From a virus, in the IMG/VR virus record IMGVR_UViG_3300015265_000024, positions 1-21,756 of that record: DNA of 21,756 bases; one strand, 5' to 3'. Every line of letters starts with the position of its first letter. Within the stretch, counting starts at the first letter, position 1. Under the pieces are notes generated by a model. It saw only the letters and a list, made by a program, of their open reading frames with translations, was not told where the DNA came from and did not search any database. A program made the translations under genes and the position numbers. Below are positions 1,562 through 12,216 of the stretch, piece after piece.

Positions 1562-1620
1562 TACAACCTAAAATTGTAATGCGCAACTCAAAATTGTAAT
1601 TATGGGCAGTCAAAATTGTA
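1562..1620. promoter_or_regulatory. Array of three repressor-type operators (distal cluster)
   Basis: Three 17-bp sites fit the pattern YRCAAC-N5-ATTGTA: 1562-1578 (TACAACCTAAAATTGTA), 1582-1598 (left half CGCAAC) and 1604-1620 (left half weaker). Their starts are 20 and 22 bp apart, about two helical turns, so they lie on one DNA face. The same dyad occurs in the repressor/Cro intergenic region at 3890-3963, so the phage repressor is the likely ligand. A promoter-like TTGTAA (1574-1579), 17-bp spacer and TAATTA (1597-1602) is embedded and points rightward, into the antisense strand of the kinase operon. Confidence 0.7.
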
Positions 1621-1646: not shown

Positions 1647-2534
1647 CTAGGCGGCGCGCTCAAAATCAATGATTGCTGCAGCAGCCTCTTCCGCACCGTA
1701 AAAGACATGAGGCTCTATACCGTCCTCGATGCTCTGACGCTGGAGATCTTCAAGGTTCTGCTCGTACTCTGTGATGAGCCCAGGGTCGAAGCGATTGAGG
1801 TCCTTGGGCGTCCAAATGAAGAGAGTGCATTTGCTTTGAGGGGCATCTGTTACTTTGTGCTTCACAAAGTGCAAGTCCCACAGACGGCTCTTCGCTCCGT
1901 CAACGTGCCGACTGATCTGTTTTGATGGTTTGATCTTGGCTAGGCTAGCCGCCATGCGATTGCCTGCGAAAAACAAGCTTCCGCGAGCACCCTGCATTGC
2001 TTGCGTGTGAAGGGGGAGATTAAATCGATCGCGTAGCCGCGGGAGAATGCCTAGGACTCGCTCTTGAATGTCGGCCCGGAGTTGTCCGAGATTTAATTCG
2101 TAGGCTACAGGATCGTCGTCAACCTCATCTTCGTCCAACAATGCTTCTGAGTGTACAGAAGAAAGGCTAGAGGTAAGGCTGGATGCCTGCTGCAGGATGT
2201 GCGCCATGCTTTTCCCAAGGCCTCTTCGACGACGCCCAACAGAAAGCCCATGCATGCCACCTGAAAACGCGCCTTCAAAGCTAGATTCCGCATATTCCAG
2301 TGCCCGTTCCAAAGCGAGTGTCATCATACGGTGCATTCCCCCGGCTGACTCGCCATAAAGGCACTTAAGGGCCTTTTCACTGATCGTGAGGCATCCGCTC
2401 ACTTGGTCATGAGATTTCGCGACGACGGCTATCGTCAAGCGCTCCCCCGACTGAACTATTGGCTCCAGGTAAACAGGAGCCCAATCAGCCTCGTAATCAG
2501 GGAAGCTTGGGAATTCGGATAGATCTGGGAGCAT
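1647..2534 (-). CDS. Unrecognised partner protein of the HipA-like kinase (295 aa)
   Basis: This is the last gene of the leftward immunity operon. Its ATG lies three bases after the kinase stop codon, so translation is probably coupled. The protein is soluble with no signal peptide or membrane segment. It has a glycine/arginine-rich patch near residues 100-107 (VGRRRRGLG), a helical, serine-rich stretch after it, an acidic loop (LLDEDEVDDDP, about 131-141), and a C-terminal part with hydrophobic strands and an acidic helix. I do not recognise a family. An N-terminal resemblance to the DUF3037 proteins often encoded beside small HipA-like kinases (ERLTIAVV pattern) is weak. A role as kinase substrate, inhibitor or adaptor is inferred from gene order alone. 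Confidence 0.8.
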   Translation of the reverse strand: MLPDLSEFPSFPDYEADWAPVYLEPIVQSGERLTIAVVAKSHDQVSGCLTISEKALKCLYGESAGGMHRMMTLALERALEYAESSFEGAFSGGMHGLSVGRRRRGLGKSMAHILQQASSLTSSLSSVHSEALLDEDEVDDDPVAYELNLGQLRADIQERVLGILPRLRDRFNLPLHTQAMQGARGSLFFAGNRMAASLAKIKPSKQISRHVDGAKSRLWDLHFVKHKVTDAPQSKCTLFIWTPKDLNRFDPGLITEYEQNLEDLQRQSIEDGIEPHVFYGAEEAAAAIIDFERAA

Positions 2535-2537
2535 CCT

Positions 2538-3329
2538 TTACACCGCTAATGTTTTCTGATTCATGCCAAGCGCGCCATCCATAAGCGTGCTCATATGATG
2601 TACCCGAGACTCCAGGAATTCCACCACTCGGTTTACATGATCAGGCTCTACCTGACAGTATTGGGGCTGGCTTGCGGCTGCGTGCCGTCGGAAATCAGCT
2701 GTGTAAGCCGGGGCCGACTTATCCTTAAGCTTTCTGGACGCCATGTGACGTTCAAATTCGCTAACCTCTCCGATCACCATTCCCAGTAGGTGGTTCCGGA
2801 TGTTTTCGCTGGCTTGCAATGCTGGTGAGGCGAGAGCTTCTTCATGGTCGATGAGCCATATGGTGCCATCCCCGCCGATCAGCAGATTACGAAGATTTCG
2901 ATCGGTATTGGCCAACAGTTCATCGAATACAATGGCTGCATGAAGATGAGACCACTTGTTGAGCAGGTGCGATACTTTATCGAAGCTGATAACTCTGCTA
3001 ATTGGCACGGCATTGGTATCGACGCTAGCTAGGACGATGCATTTTCCGGAGCCCCGACCTACATCCTTTCCTCTGGCAATGGCGAGCGCAGTAAGAGGAA
3101 TCGGTAAGCCGAAATACCTTCCAATACTGGCGCTCATGGTTTCGGCGAAAAGCCGCTCTGCAGGTAGGACCTTGATGTAGGCGTGCATGTCACGCTTGTA
3201 GCCTTTGAGGCCTGAGATAGTTCCGTAGTACAGCGGATGCTGACCCCTTACATCAGGATCTTCAACAGCTTCACCCTGAAGGTACAGGGCTAGGGGAATA
3301 TCAATCGGTTCCGTTTTTCCGTTTTGCAT
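2538..3329 (-). CDS. HipA-like (HipA_2-type) protein kinase (263 aa)
   Basis: This is a small HipA-like kinase. Visible catalytic features are a candidate ATP lysine in AYIKVLP (K53), a glutamate in the next helix (E63), the catalytic loop NTDRNLRN with D143 and N148, and the metal-binding aspartate in WLIDHEEA (D161). All are present, so it should be active. It lacks the N-terminal subdomain of full-length HipA (about 440 aa). In known systems HipA-type kinases phosphorylate host proteins such as aminoacyl-tRNA synthetases and arrest growth, held in check by a HipB-type XRE protein. Here the upstream gene is an XRE protein whose end overlaps the kinase start by 29 bp. A toxin-antitoxin or exclusion role is therefore plausible but unproven, and the substrate is unknown. 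Confidence 0.85.
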   Translation of the reverse strand: MQNGKTEPIDIPLALYLQGEAVEDPDVRGQHPLYYGTISGLKGYKRDMHAYIKVLPAERLFAETMSASIGRYFGLPIPLTALAIARGKDVGRGSGKCIVLASVDTNAVPISRVISFDKVSHLLNKWSHLHAAIVFDELLANTDRNLRNLLIGGDGTIWLIDHEEALASPALQASENIRNHLLGMVIGEVSEFERHMASRKLKDKSAPAYTADFRRHAAASQPQYCQVEPDHVNRVVEFLESRVHHMSTLMDGALGMNQKTLAV

Positions 3330-3879
3330 TTTGCGAACTGCTTTCCTTGGCGCCAGACTTCTTAAGTCCGTGACCGATCATGTTGACCATATCTTCCGAA
3401 TCGCCACCACTATCCGCATTCACAAAGGCGGATTCAGCGAGGGCGTCCAGCTCTATAGGAAGTCGGGGTACTTCGTTCTTGGGGGATGCTCCGCGCTGAG
3501 CGAATGCATCTGCAATCCGCAATAAGATGCTGATCTCCCCACCGCTAAGTCCTCCAGAGTCCTCAGGCTTTCGCAACAGCTCGATTAGACTTTCGAGGAG
3601 TGGTTGCCGTAACTCTGGACGCCGAGCTACAGGGTCCGACCTAAGCCTTGAAACTGGAGAGTCCAAGACAGGGTTGACCCTTACTGGCTCGATCAAATCC
3701 ATTATCGGTATGCCGAGAAAGACTGATATCGCCTCGATTTTCTTATGGCGGGGAACGTTGCGGCCGGACTCCCAAGCCTGCACCGACTGTGGTTTCACGC
3801 CCAACGCCCGCGCCAACTCGGACTGGTTAAGACCAGCCTTCTCCCGCGCCTTTGTAATTCGCTTGCCAATATTGCTCAT
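3301..3879 (-). CDS. XRE-family phage repressor lacking a protease domain (192 aa)
   Basis: Residues about 5-60 form a Cro/CI-type helix-turn-helix (LNQSELARALGVKPQSVQAW). The rest is a mostly hydrophilic C-terminal region that does not look like the LexA/CI S24 peptidase: no clear Ser-Lys dyad context and no Ala-Gly cleavage site. The gene diverges from a YdaS-type cro, with repeated operators between them, so it is the likely lysogeny repressor. No good Shine-Dalgarno sequence precedes the ATG, and a possible -10 (TTGTAA) sits only about 10 bases upstream, so the mRNA may be leaderless, as known for lambda cI from PRM. Its 3' end overlaps the kinase gene, suggesting it is also the HipB-like partner. 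Induction is probably not by RecA-triggered self-cleavage. Confidence 0.88.
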   Translation of the reverse strand: MSNIGKRITKAREKAGLNQSELARALGVKPQSVQAWESGRNVPRHKKIEAISVFLGIPIMDLIEPVRVNPVLDSPVSRLRSDPVARRPELRQPLLESLIELLRKPEDSGGLSGGEISILLRIADAFAQRGASPKNEVPRLPIELDALAESAFVNADSGGDSEDMVNMIGHGLKKSGAKESSSQNAKRKNGTD

Positions 3880-3889
3880 AACCGAACTT

Positions 3890-3963
3890 TACAACCTCGC
3901 GTTGTAGATGGCATTGCAATTCTCGGTTGTAGTTTTCGTCTGAAAATTGTAATTTGCGTTGTA
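3890..3963. promoter_or_regulatory. Immunity operator region between repressor and cro
   Basis: A perfect dyad TACAAC-CTCGC-GTTGTA lies at 3890-3906. A near match (TGCAAT-N5-GTTGTA) lies at 3915-3931. Two weaker overlapping sites end in ATTGTA and GTTGTA at 3935-3951 and 3947-3963. The first abuts the repressor start codon and the others cover the rightward promoter, the layout of a lambda-type OR region. The repressor and the Cro-like protein are the expected ligands. Confidence 0.8.
3927..3955 (+). promoter_or_regulatory. Predicted rightward early promoter (PR-like)
   Basis: TTGTAG (3927-3932) and TAATTT (3950-3955) are separated by 17 bp, a sigma-70 arrangement. Transcription would start near 3962 and run into cro at 3986. 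Both hexamers lie inside operator dyads, so bound repressor would occlude the promoter. Confidence 0.6.
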
Positions 3964-3985: not shown

Positions 3986-4201
3986 ATGAGCCAGAACGCC
4001 GCAATACGAGCAGCAAAGGCAGCCGGAAGCCAGTCCGCTTTGGCCCGCGTTCTCGGCTGCACGCCACAAAACGTACAGAAATGGTGTGCCAGCGGCCGGA
4101 TCCCGGCTGAGCGAGTTTTGCGGATTGAGCAAGTGACCGGGGTACCGCGCCATGAGTTGCGTCCAGATCTGTACCCCGCTGAATCACTTACTGCCGCCTA
4201 A
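3986..4201 (+). CDS. Cro-like regulator, YdaS family (71 aa)
   Basis: A small helix-turn-helix protein. The core SALARVLGCTPQNVQKWCAS, followed by GRIPAERVLRIEQVTGVPRH and a tail ending RPDLYP, is the hallmark of the YdaS/Cro group found opposite CI-type repressors. It starts at an ATG with AGAGG eight bases upstream. As first gene of the rightward operon it should repress the immunity promoters and commit the phage to lytic growth. The length (71 aa) is normal for the family. Confidence 0.9.
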   Translation: MSQNAAIRAAKAAGSQSALARVLGCTPQNVQKWCASGRIPAERVLRIEQVTGVPRHELRPDLYPAESLTAA

Positions 4202-4285: not shown

Positions 4286-4711
4286 ATGCAGGAATTGATG
4301 AAGGCGATCTACGACGTGGTTGACGACCATGGCACCAAAAGAATCGCCGAAGGTGCGGACTTCAAGTCGCGGACTCTTCTTTCCCAAAAGGCAAACCCGG
4401 ACTACGACACCCACCGCATGAACGTGGAAGAGCTGCACCGAATCATGAAGTTCACCCAAGACTTCCGCCCGCTAAAGGCCTGGGCAGAGGCGTTCGGTTT
4501 CGCCCTGGTTCCGAAGGAGCGGCCGGAAGGGATAAATCTCAACGCCGCGCTTTTGAGACTGCACGCAGATCTTGCCGACGTTACCCGACTCGCGTTCGAC
4601 GCACAGGCTGATGGTCGAGTCTGCTCGGTCGAGAAAACGAGCCTGCTCAAGGAGGCTGAGGAAGTAATCGTCAGCCTGGAAGTGTTCAAACAGTCCGTGA
4701 AGGCAGCCTGA
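4286..4711 (+). CDS. CII-like phage regulatory protein (141 aa)
   Basis: The second gene of the rightward operon matches the phage CII/CP76 type of regulator. The N-terminal half (EGADFKSRTLLSQKANPDYD, then HRMNVEELHRIMKFTQDFRP) is a DNA-binding-like helical domain with the family's typical ordering, and the C-terminal half is helical, probably for oligomerisation. Its ATG has GAGGTG upstream. It is expected to activate lysogeny promoters or otherwise tune the switch. A strong terminator follows within 15 bases, so this gene closes the first segment of the early transcript. Confidence 0.78.
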   Translation: MQELMKAIYDVVDDHGTKRIAEGADFKSRTLLSQKANPDYDTHRMNVEELHRIMKFTQDFRPLKAWAEAFGFALVPKERPEGINLNAALLRLHADLADVTRLAFDAQADGRVCSVEKTSLLKEAEEVIVSLEVFKQSVKAA

Positions 4712-4752: not shown

Positions 4753-4781
4753 CAACAGCGGTAAAACAAGTGGAGCCGATT

Positions 4782-5591
4782 ATGCACGCACAACCACAAC
4801 TGGACAATACCGGAAAGGTCGCGACACGTTTTTCGAATTCTGAAAACGTGTCGCGTAGTACGATGTCTTCCCGCGAAATCGCGAGTGTCACCGGCAAGCG
4901 CCACGACAACGTAAAGCGCACCATTGAGGACTTGGCCGCTAGCGGGTTGGTCCATCCTCAATCTGAGGATGAATGGTCCAGGGACAAACTTGGTCGCGCG
5001 CGCGCAACCCGTATCTACAACATCTGCGAGCGTGACAGCTACGTAATTGTCGCTCAGCTCTCGCCGGAGTTCACATCGAAGCTTGTGGATCGCTGGCAAG
5101 AGCTCGAGCGTGTTGTCGCAGCACAAGCCGCTCTTCCCGCCAACAGCTCAAAGATTGTCGGCGAGCTCGCCATTCTGGAGTGCTTCGATCGCCTCCTGAA
5201 ACCGGCACCGTCAAGCAAGATGATGATGCTGGCAAAGATCGCCGCCAACAATGGACTAGATGCCAAGTTCCTGCCTGGCTACGCCGTCGACGCTGCCCCC
5301 GATGCAACTGGCGGTACCTCCATGCCGACCAAGGCCGTTACTGCTCTCATCAAAGACTTCGACCTGCGCACGTCCGCACCAGCCTTTAACAAACTGCTGG
5401 CAACCCATGGTTTCCTCAAGCAGCTCCAGCGCAAGAACTCAAAGCAAGAAATGGTCGACTTCTGGTCGGTGACTGAGAAGGGTCTGGCCTACGGTAAGAA
5501 CCTCACCAGTCCTCAATGCCCCCGCGAAACACAGCCGCATTGGTACGTGGATCGTTTCCCTGAGCTGGCCAAACTGGTCGGGAAGGCCTGA
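4782..5591 (+). CDS. Rha-family phage regulatory protein (269 aa)
   Basis: I chose the ATG at 4782 because GGAG lies six bases upstream; the frame could extend to a GTG at 4770, but that overlaps this ribosome binding site. After a 27-residue N-terminal extension comes the Rha signature (TMSSREIASVTGKRHDNVKR, about residues 27-46), followed by the Rha-typical ARATRIYNICERDSYVIVAQ. The C-terminal half holds a second domain of the phage-antirepressor type (winged-helix-like, ending near WSVTEKGLAYGKN). Rha proteins are early phage regulators whose expression can disturb host growth. The extension is encoded by a perfect 13-bp inverted repeat at 4820-4855. The next gene starts one base after the stop. 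Confidence 0.85.
   Translation: MHAQPQLDNTGKVATRFSNSENVSRSTMSSREIASVTGKRHDNVKRTIEDLAASGLVHPQSEDEWSRDKLGRARATRIYNICERDSYVIVAQLSPEFTSKLVDRWQELERVVAAQAALPANSSKIVGELAILECFDRLLKPAPSSKMMMLAKIAANNGLDAKFLPGYAVDAAPDATGGTSMPTKAVTALIKDFDLRTSAPAFNKLLATHGFLKQLQRKNSKQEMVDFWSVTEKGLAYGKNLTSPQCPRETQPHWYVDRFPELAKLVGKA
4818..4855. repeat. Perfect 13-bp inverted repeat containing GTCGCGAC, inside the Rha gene
   Basis: CGCGACACGTTTT (4820-4832) pairs perfectly with AAAACGTGTCGCG (4843-4855) around a ten-base spacer. With the two bases before it the left arm reads GTCGCGACACGTTT, and the same 14 bases recur at 11134-11147 upstream of the acb2-like gene. A protein-binding operator or a conserved mobile element are the two simplest readings. 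Confidence 0.8.
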
Positions 5592-10026: not shown

Positions 10027-10299
10027 TCAAACCTCCTCCCACGTGACGGCGGTAGTTTCCCGCCACTTCACGTCGGTGATGCCGAATCGTTCCGCCATTG
10101 GTTTTGAAAACCGTTTGAGAGGAGGTCGTCCCGGCTTGGGAATTGGAGCGATGCCGGCGTCACAGCTCGCCCATTGCCAAGCTTCCGCGTTGTTCATCAG
10201 TTTTGTTCGGATGACAAACGACATGGGTCTTCCGTGGAGCTTGTACTCAATAACAAAAATATTTACCTGACTCACGAGTACTGCTCCTTCTTGGCTCAT
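10027..10299 (-). CDS. Small DUF6555-like protein (90 aa)
   Basis: The segment FVIEYKLHGRPMSFVIRTKL, then NNAEAWQWASCDAGIAPIPK, then SKPMAERFGITDVKWR, agrees with my memory of a short Pseudomonas family (DUF6555) of unknown function. It may start at the ATG at 10299 (AAGAAGGAG lies downstream of that codon) or at an internal GTG such as the one in AVLVSQ, which has that GGAG upstream; the start is uncertain by a few residues. It is transcribed leftward with the 79-residue gene behind it. AT-rich DNA with a palindrome at 10336-10350 precedes it and probably holds its promoter. Confidence 0.65.
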   Translation of the reverse strand: MSQEGAVLVSQVNIFVIEYKLHGRPMSFVIRTKLMNNAEAWQWASCDAGIAPIPKPGRPPLKRFSKPMAERFGITDVKWRETTAVTWEEV

Positions 10300-11611: not shown

Positions 11612-11775
11612 AGCGGGAAGCAGCAGTAGAGTGATGAGGGTGATTGTTCGAATGTAGTTACGCATAGGTATTGCCTGAAAAGTGGGTACCTAACCAGCAT
11701 CGGGTATCGGCCTTTTCAATTCATCTCAACCCTGTGCAGTTCCTCTCACCCTCCGACTTCGTGGAGTTTCATCGC

Positions 11776-12216
11776 ATGACGACCATTGCCTACAAAGACG
11801 GCGTGATCGCCTACGACTCCCAGATCACCAGCGGCAACACGATCATCTATGACGACTATCAAAAGTGCCATCAGGTGAAAGGCGTCAGGTTTTTCATGAG
11901 CGGTAAGACCTGTGACTACACCGCGCTGCAGGATGCTTACTTTGGTGGAGTCGTTACCCGGGAAGTCGATGCCTCAGCAATCGTTGCCGACGGTGAAGGT
12001 CTTTGGTGTATCGGTGCTGGGATTCAGGAAGGATTCTGGAAGAGTCCGATCATGCTCGACTCAATCTATGCAATCGGCTCTGGATCGGATCACGCTATAA
12101 CTGCCATGGATATGGGCGCCTCTGCGTACGAGGCAGTCCAGATGGCCGCAAGGCGGGACACTGGTACCGGCGGAACTATCCGTGCGGTGACAGTTGGCGT
12201 TGGCAAGGCTGGGTAG
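11776..12216 (+). CDS. HslV/proteasome-like Ntn-hydrolase (146 aa)
   Basis: I chose the ATG at 11776 (GGAG nine bases upstream) over an upstream extension because the mature family N-terminus begins with threonine. After removal of Met the protein starts TTIAYKDGVIAYDSQ, like HslV TTIVSV. Counting from that threonine, T1, D13 (AYDSQ) and K29 (YQKCHQV) match the T1/D17/K33 active-site set of HslV and proteasome beta subunits, and the conserved AIGSGSDHA loop follows. The length is slightly below HslV (about 175 aa). No HslU-type ATPase is in the window. It may process phage proteins, borrow a host unfoldase or modulate host proteolysis. Confidence 0.82.
   Translation: MTTIAYKDGVIAYDSQITSGNTIIYDDYQKCHQVKGVRFFMSGKTCDYTALQDAYFGGVVTREVDASAIVADGEGLWCIGAGIQEGFWKSPIMLDSIYAIGSGSDHAITAMDMGASAYEAVQMAARRDTGTGGTIRAVTVGVGKAG

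Follow-up and report, generated by a model that had tools for sequence, protein, structure and literature searches.

Organization of the immunity region

The window, i.e. the whole 21,756-base stretch of DNA analysed here, is IMG/VR virus record IMGVR_UViG_3300015265_000024. Its replication and structural region has its nearest relatives among Pseudomonas phages, e.g. Medea1 and phiAH14a, and the window is a Pseudomonas prophage. On the minus strand, the transcript order is XRE repressor (3879–3301), kinase (3329–2538), and a third protein, here termed C3 (2534–1647). Because Cro-like, CII-like, and Rha-like anti-repressor genes adjoin this trio on the plus strand, the region is of the lambdoid immunity type, in agreement with the initial annotation, which had taken the XRE–kinase operon for a prophage immunity operon. 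The genes are as follows.

3301–3879, minus strand: XRE repressor gene, 192 aa; HTH head, variable linker, helical hairpin, and conserved tail, without an S24 peptidase domain
3301–3329, minus strand: overlap of the repressor and kinase genes, 29 nt
2538–3329, minus strand: HipA_2-type kinase, 263 aa; D143 at 2901–2903 and D161 at 2847–2849; PI3K/PI4K-like fold
1647–2534, minus strand: C3, HipD-like partner, 295 aa; 3-nt gap after the kinase; N-terminal DUF3037-like domain with an SGERLTIAVVA motif, plus a second alpha/beta domain
3986–4201, plus strand: cro-like gene, 71 aa, divergent from the repressor
4286–4711, plus strand: CII-like regulator (Phage_CP76)
4770–5591, plus strand: Rha/anti-repressor-like gene

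All three open reading frames of the trio are intact, and the repressor–kinase overlap and three-base gap described initially were borne out. The suggestion that the same trio be sought in other genomes was also followed, and the three-gene order was found conserved in related IMG/VR phages, with kinase identities of 86–88% and about 45%; it is likewise present in the named phages Pseudomonas phage vB_PaeS-D14P and Alteromonas phage P24. Comparison of the window with its 86–88% relatives gave a dN of about 0.1 for kinase and C3, with saturated dS, from which it follows that both genes are under strong purifying selection.

Outside the immunity region, a weak proteasome-subunit-like open reading frame (11758–12216, plus strand; PF00227, E 0.0011, below cut-off) was noted, and the stretch of phiAH14a that matches the window includes a gene annotated as "proteasome subunit beta". 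A putative phage metallopeptidase (12531–13154, plus strand; PF18894, E 1e-43) and a DUF6555 family protein (10027–10299, minus strand; E 3e-29) were also found.

The kinase and its partner

Against HipA_2, the kinase scored 26.3 bits, below the cut-off of 27, and it weakly matched PADLOC PDC-M66A (6e-4). An alignment of 43 kinases shows no variation at K53, E63, D136, N141, D143, and R144, and at least 90% conservation at N148, I160, D161, and H162. By this conservation the catalytic residues of the window kinase are intact, and the enzyme is, as first proposed, probably active, judging from its sequence. The structure model is confident (pLDDT 91) and adopts a PI3K/PI4K-like fold; HipA is a member of the same superfamily. 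Neither a HipA N-terminal subdomain nor a separate HipS (Couple_hipA) was matched in the kinase or C3 by Pfam or NCBIfam models, and sequence searches of solved structures returned nothing useful for the kinase, C3, or DUF3037.

Related kinases were collected by profile from viral contigs and Pseudomonadaceae genomes, and 52 of these 59 are directly followed by a partner of at least 240 aa. C3, listed as unrecognised in the initial annotation, gave no Pfam or PADLOC match itself; it belongs to phrog_21150 and carries a conserved SGERLTI motif. Compared directly with DUF3037, it gave a weak and unconvincing result (P 0.015–0.04, single comparison), so that the connection rests on a bridge family, the partner proteins of some prophage kinases, which are intermediate between the two. 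The C3 profile aligned with the bridge at an hhalign probability of 98.7% (E 1.5e-16), and the bridge with DUF3037 at 93% (E 3e-7). C3 and bridge combined matched bona fide DUF3037 at E 2.2e-5 with a score of 43; the 30 column-shuffled controls reached at most 19.7, and unrelated profiles scored no higher than about 12. One bridge member, L044, itself matches PF11236 (0.002) and PDC-M66B (3e-5). The C3 model (pLDDT 84, pTM 0.52) contains two alpha/beta domains; its matches in the PDB were weak and confined to ERCC4/XPF-type folds. A viral DUF1828 protein matches C3 at E 1.4e-3, and the second domain of C3 may or may not be of the DUF1829 type. Taken through the intermediates, with the two-domain model and the PADLOC match on an intermediate, C3 is a DUF3037-like protein.

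Relationship to HipAD

A kinase paired with a DUF3037 protein constitutes HipAD, or DS-6, an anti-phage system that defends only with the kinase catalytic residue in place, the mutant being inactive (PMC13092281); PADLOC names the pair PDC-M66. Its DS-6B component is described as DUF3037 plus DUF1829 (PMC13092281), and the same source attributes the first report of HipAD to Brenes and Laub 2025. HipAD has been reported from E. coli prophages and from the Retron-Sda1 locus. Genetic work on Retron-Sda1 showed that defence is lost without the kinase, that removal of the DUF3037 gene is toxic, and that the HTH can be dispensed with (PMC12548924). In the published picture of the pair, the kinase is the toxin and the DUF3037 protein neutralises it.

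With C3 tied to DUF3037, the kinase and C3 thus form a divergent HipAD/DS-6/PDC-M66 pair, and the view that the module was of an undescribed type no longer stands, kinase–DUF3037 systems having been published (PMC13092281, PMC12548924). Shared with HipAD are a HipA-type kinase followed at once by a DUF3037-type protein, a two-domain partner, a prophage location, and intact kinase residues. The window differs in that C3 is too diverged for detection by Pfam or PADLOC, that the kinase gene overlaps that of a non-S24 repressor bearing a tail, and that the pair is flanked by OL/OR-like operators. HipBA and HipBST also combine an XRE protein and a HipA-superfamily kinase in one operon, but in the window the XRE protein is a phage repressor, the third protein is DUF3037-like, and a HipS-like protein and a match to the HipA N-terminal subdomain (Couple_hipA) are missing. 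Membership of the trio in HipBST was rejected for want of a HipS-like protein.

The gene upstream of such kinase–partner pairs varies and may encode an XRE protein without peptidase, an S24 CI repressor, or a ribbon-helix-helix protein, or there may be none. Since this gene is exchanged while the pair stays, the repressor does not serve as antitoxin across the family, contrary to the initial proposal that the XRE repressor neutralises the kinase. By analogy with the toxic DUF3037 deletion in Retron-Sda1, the family's general antitoxin is most likely C3, the conserved partner.

Operator-like sites on both sides of the operon

The pattern TACAAC-N5-RTTGTA occurs nine times in the window against 0.84 expected, and none of 100 shuffles reached nine; in this count palindromes score on both strands, and one match pair (8642) lies outside the two clusters. 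These are found in the repressor–cro interval (3890–3931) and downstream of C3 (1562–1598), with the following elements.

3890–3906: OR-like operator TACAACCTCGCGTTGTA, palindromic half-sites TACAAC/GTTGTA
3915–3931: OR-like operator TGCAATTCTCGGTTGTA, from the pattern search
3947–3963: more TTGTA half-sites in the OR region, beside the cro start
1562–1578: OL-like operator TACAACCTAAAATTGTA, downstream of C3
1582–1598: OL-like operator CGCAACTCAAAATTGTA, from the pattern search
1604–1620: third OL-like site (TCAAAATTGTA), half-site only
1573–1600, minus strand: candidate pL, promoter-like ATTACA-16-TACAAT inside the OL-like sites; the scan found one such site where chance alone predicts 2.6, the position being its sole support

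A two-sided layout was also seen in two relatives that carry other repressors and other operator words, TATCTCCA-NN-GGAGATA in L009 and TATATCCA-NN-GGATATA in L007. Three repressor lineages therefore use different words within a common lambda-like OL/OR layout. This two-sided claim is based on palindrome searches and not on a test for shared OL/OR words by 8-mers, which did not reach significance in every relative. After the OL-like sites, a CGCAGCGACACACAGCCACTGCGAAGGG-type sequence at 1500–1560 is common to the window, L009, and L017 though their operators differ; it is possibly a left-operon leader.

In lambda, the exclusion genes rexA and rexB lie between the repressor gene and the left operator and pL. 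With operator clusters on both sides, the kinase–C3 pair occupies this same slot; what is new here is its location, with the repressor at one end and a second operator cluster at the other. As in cI-rexA-rexB, the genes are co-oriented with the repressor, opposite to cro, in the interval from repressor to left operator/pL; the window differs in holding a kinase–antitoxin pair in place of the Rex pair, and family searches linked neither the kinase nor C3 to RexA or RexB. A rexA-rexB-like slot also holds annotated DUF3037 pairs in lambdoid phages of two hosts: in E. coli, those of ES2, where gam, bet, and exo come next, and of OW1E2; in Klebsiella, a phage-like replicon of 43.5 kb. At the corresponding place, Medea1 has an S24 CI repressor and no pair, in keeping with an exchangeable cassette.

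The repressor and its tail

The XRE protein matched HTH_3 (7.8e-13), and a domain search found no Peptidase_S24 domain in it. Two parts of the protein are of interest.

3682–3879, minus strand: HTH head, residues 1–66, 56–64% identical to the corresponding region of the S24-type repressors from Pseudomonas phages PS-1 and vB_PaeP_Tr60_Ab31
3304–3459, minus strand: C-terminal tail, residues 141–192 (LDALAESAF..DMVNMIGHGLKK..), retained in kinase-linked repressors whose HTH heads are unrelated

Used alone as a query, the window repressor found no relatives in the viral contigs scanned. Against the repressor of L004, the tail has 41 of 52 residues identical, the HTH 43 of 66, and the linker 6 of 43, making the tail the most conserved part. 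Of 298 Pseudomonadaceae genomes searched, four have a tail of this type (class A), each with an adjoining kinase, the profile having been built from those genomes or close relatives too. Beyond the helical hairpin, 21–36 residues follow in all six hairpin XREs that adjoin a kinase, most with a second tail type, RLRxKLKxND; of 17 without a kinase, 16 end 2–5 residues past it, although many of these are orthologues and the independent cases are therefore fewer. The hairpin itself was rejected as a kinase-specific feature, 17 of 23 Pseudomonadaceae hairpin XREs having no kinase. At L139 (1405–1947), an XRE with hairpin and RLRxRL tail has no recognisable kinase downstream, and tblastn gave no support for a decayed one.

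The conservation and distribution of the tail, together with the gene overlap, speak for a model in which the repressor is the antitoxin, as HipB is in HipBA and HipBST, so that its loss upon induction or infection frees the kinase and C3 is an accessory. Kinase–partner pairs nevertheless exist without any XRE (the chromosomal DUF3037 pairs), others accompany ribbon-helix-helix genes or S24 repressors set apart from the kinase, and the Retron-Sda1 deletions point to the DUF3037 protein. The tail is, moreover, absent from the kinase-linked XREs of L001, L074, L083, and L090, and was for this reason rejected as a universal feature; it is a lineage-specific hint of contact with the kinase or C3, not proof. 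As an account of the system this reading is unlikely; for the window lineage, where a physical link of repressor and kinase is possible, a repressor acting as antitoxin is possible too, though the rest of the family does not require it.

Gene spacing separates two kinds of repressor: those with an S24 domain are set apart from the kinase gene by at least 17 nt or an intervening gene, and non-S24 XREs overlap it or abut at +8 nt or less. This arrangement, the fact that PS-1 and Tr60_Ab31 combine the window's type of HTH head with an S24 domain, and the co-occurrence of tail and kinase could be explained by a switch confined to non-S24 lineages, in which the kinase, held back by C3, would decide when the prophage is induced by phosphorylating either the repressor tail or a repressor–C3 complex. 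We regard such a switch as quite improbable: S24 repressors, which need none, accompany the same pair, non-S24 repressors without a kinase exist, and the Rha-like anti-repressor gene could do the switching instead.

Proposed role of the kinase–C3 pair

The reading that we favour, at a probability of roughly 0.7, is that kinase and C3 are a divergent HipAD-type toxin–antitoxin and anti-phage pair, whose biology is known from distant homologues, carried as a prophage lysogenic-conversion cassette in the rexA-rexB-like slot between repressor and left operator. The conserved pair and the published homologues thereby favour, by analogy, the toxin–antitoxin or superinfection-exclusion module put forward initially. 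In a lysogen, repressor, kinase, and C3 would be co-expressed from one leftward transcript, with OL and OR under the repressor's normal control and C3 restraining the kinase, as in the HipAD homologues. An infecting phage would upset the kinase–C3 balance, and the freed kinase would phosphorylate a host target, stopping growth and protecting the lysogen population. In the window lineage, the conserved repressor tail may also contact the kinase or C3.

More speculatively, and we consider this doubtful, the repressor of this lineage may have given up a self-cleaving S24 domain and gained in exchange a tail that binds the HipAD pair or serves it as a phosphorylation substrate; the pair would then read out the repressor and link phage defence to the lysis–lysogeny decision. 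A plain addiction or lysogeny-maintenance module that leaves other phages unaffected is very unlikely: toxin–antitoxin pairs can stabilise prophages, and in a Pseudomonas sp. BGI-2 relic (L018, 6001–7680), which has no repressor upstream, the kinase is frameshifted and C3 intact, a usual decay route of such pairs, but an integrated prophage needs little stabilisation, and the closest homologues with test results defend against phages (PMC12548924, PMC13092281).

The favoured HipAD-type reading extends a newly described defence family into a sequence range that standard models miss. It also indicates that the repressor-operon position, comparable with that of rexA-rexB, has been used repeatedly by kinase–antitoxin pairs, in phages of Pseudomonas, Acinetobacter, Alteromonas, Klebsiella, and E. 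coli. Repressors that carry a kinase-linked tail make a connection of abortive defence with the control of immunity directly testable.
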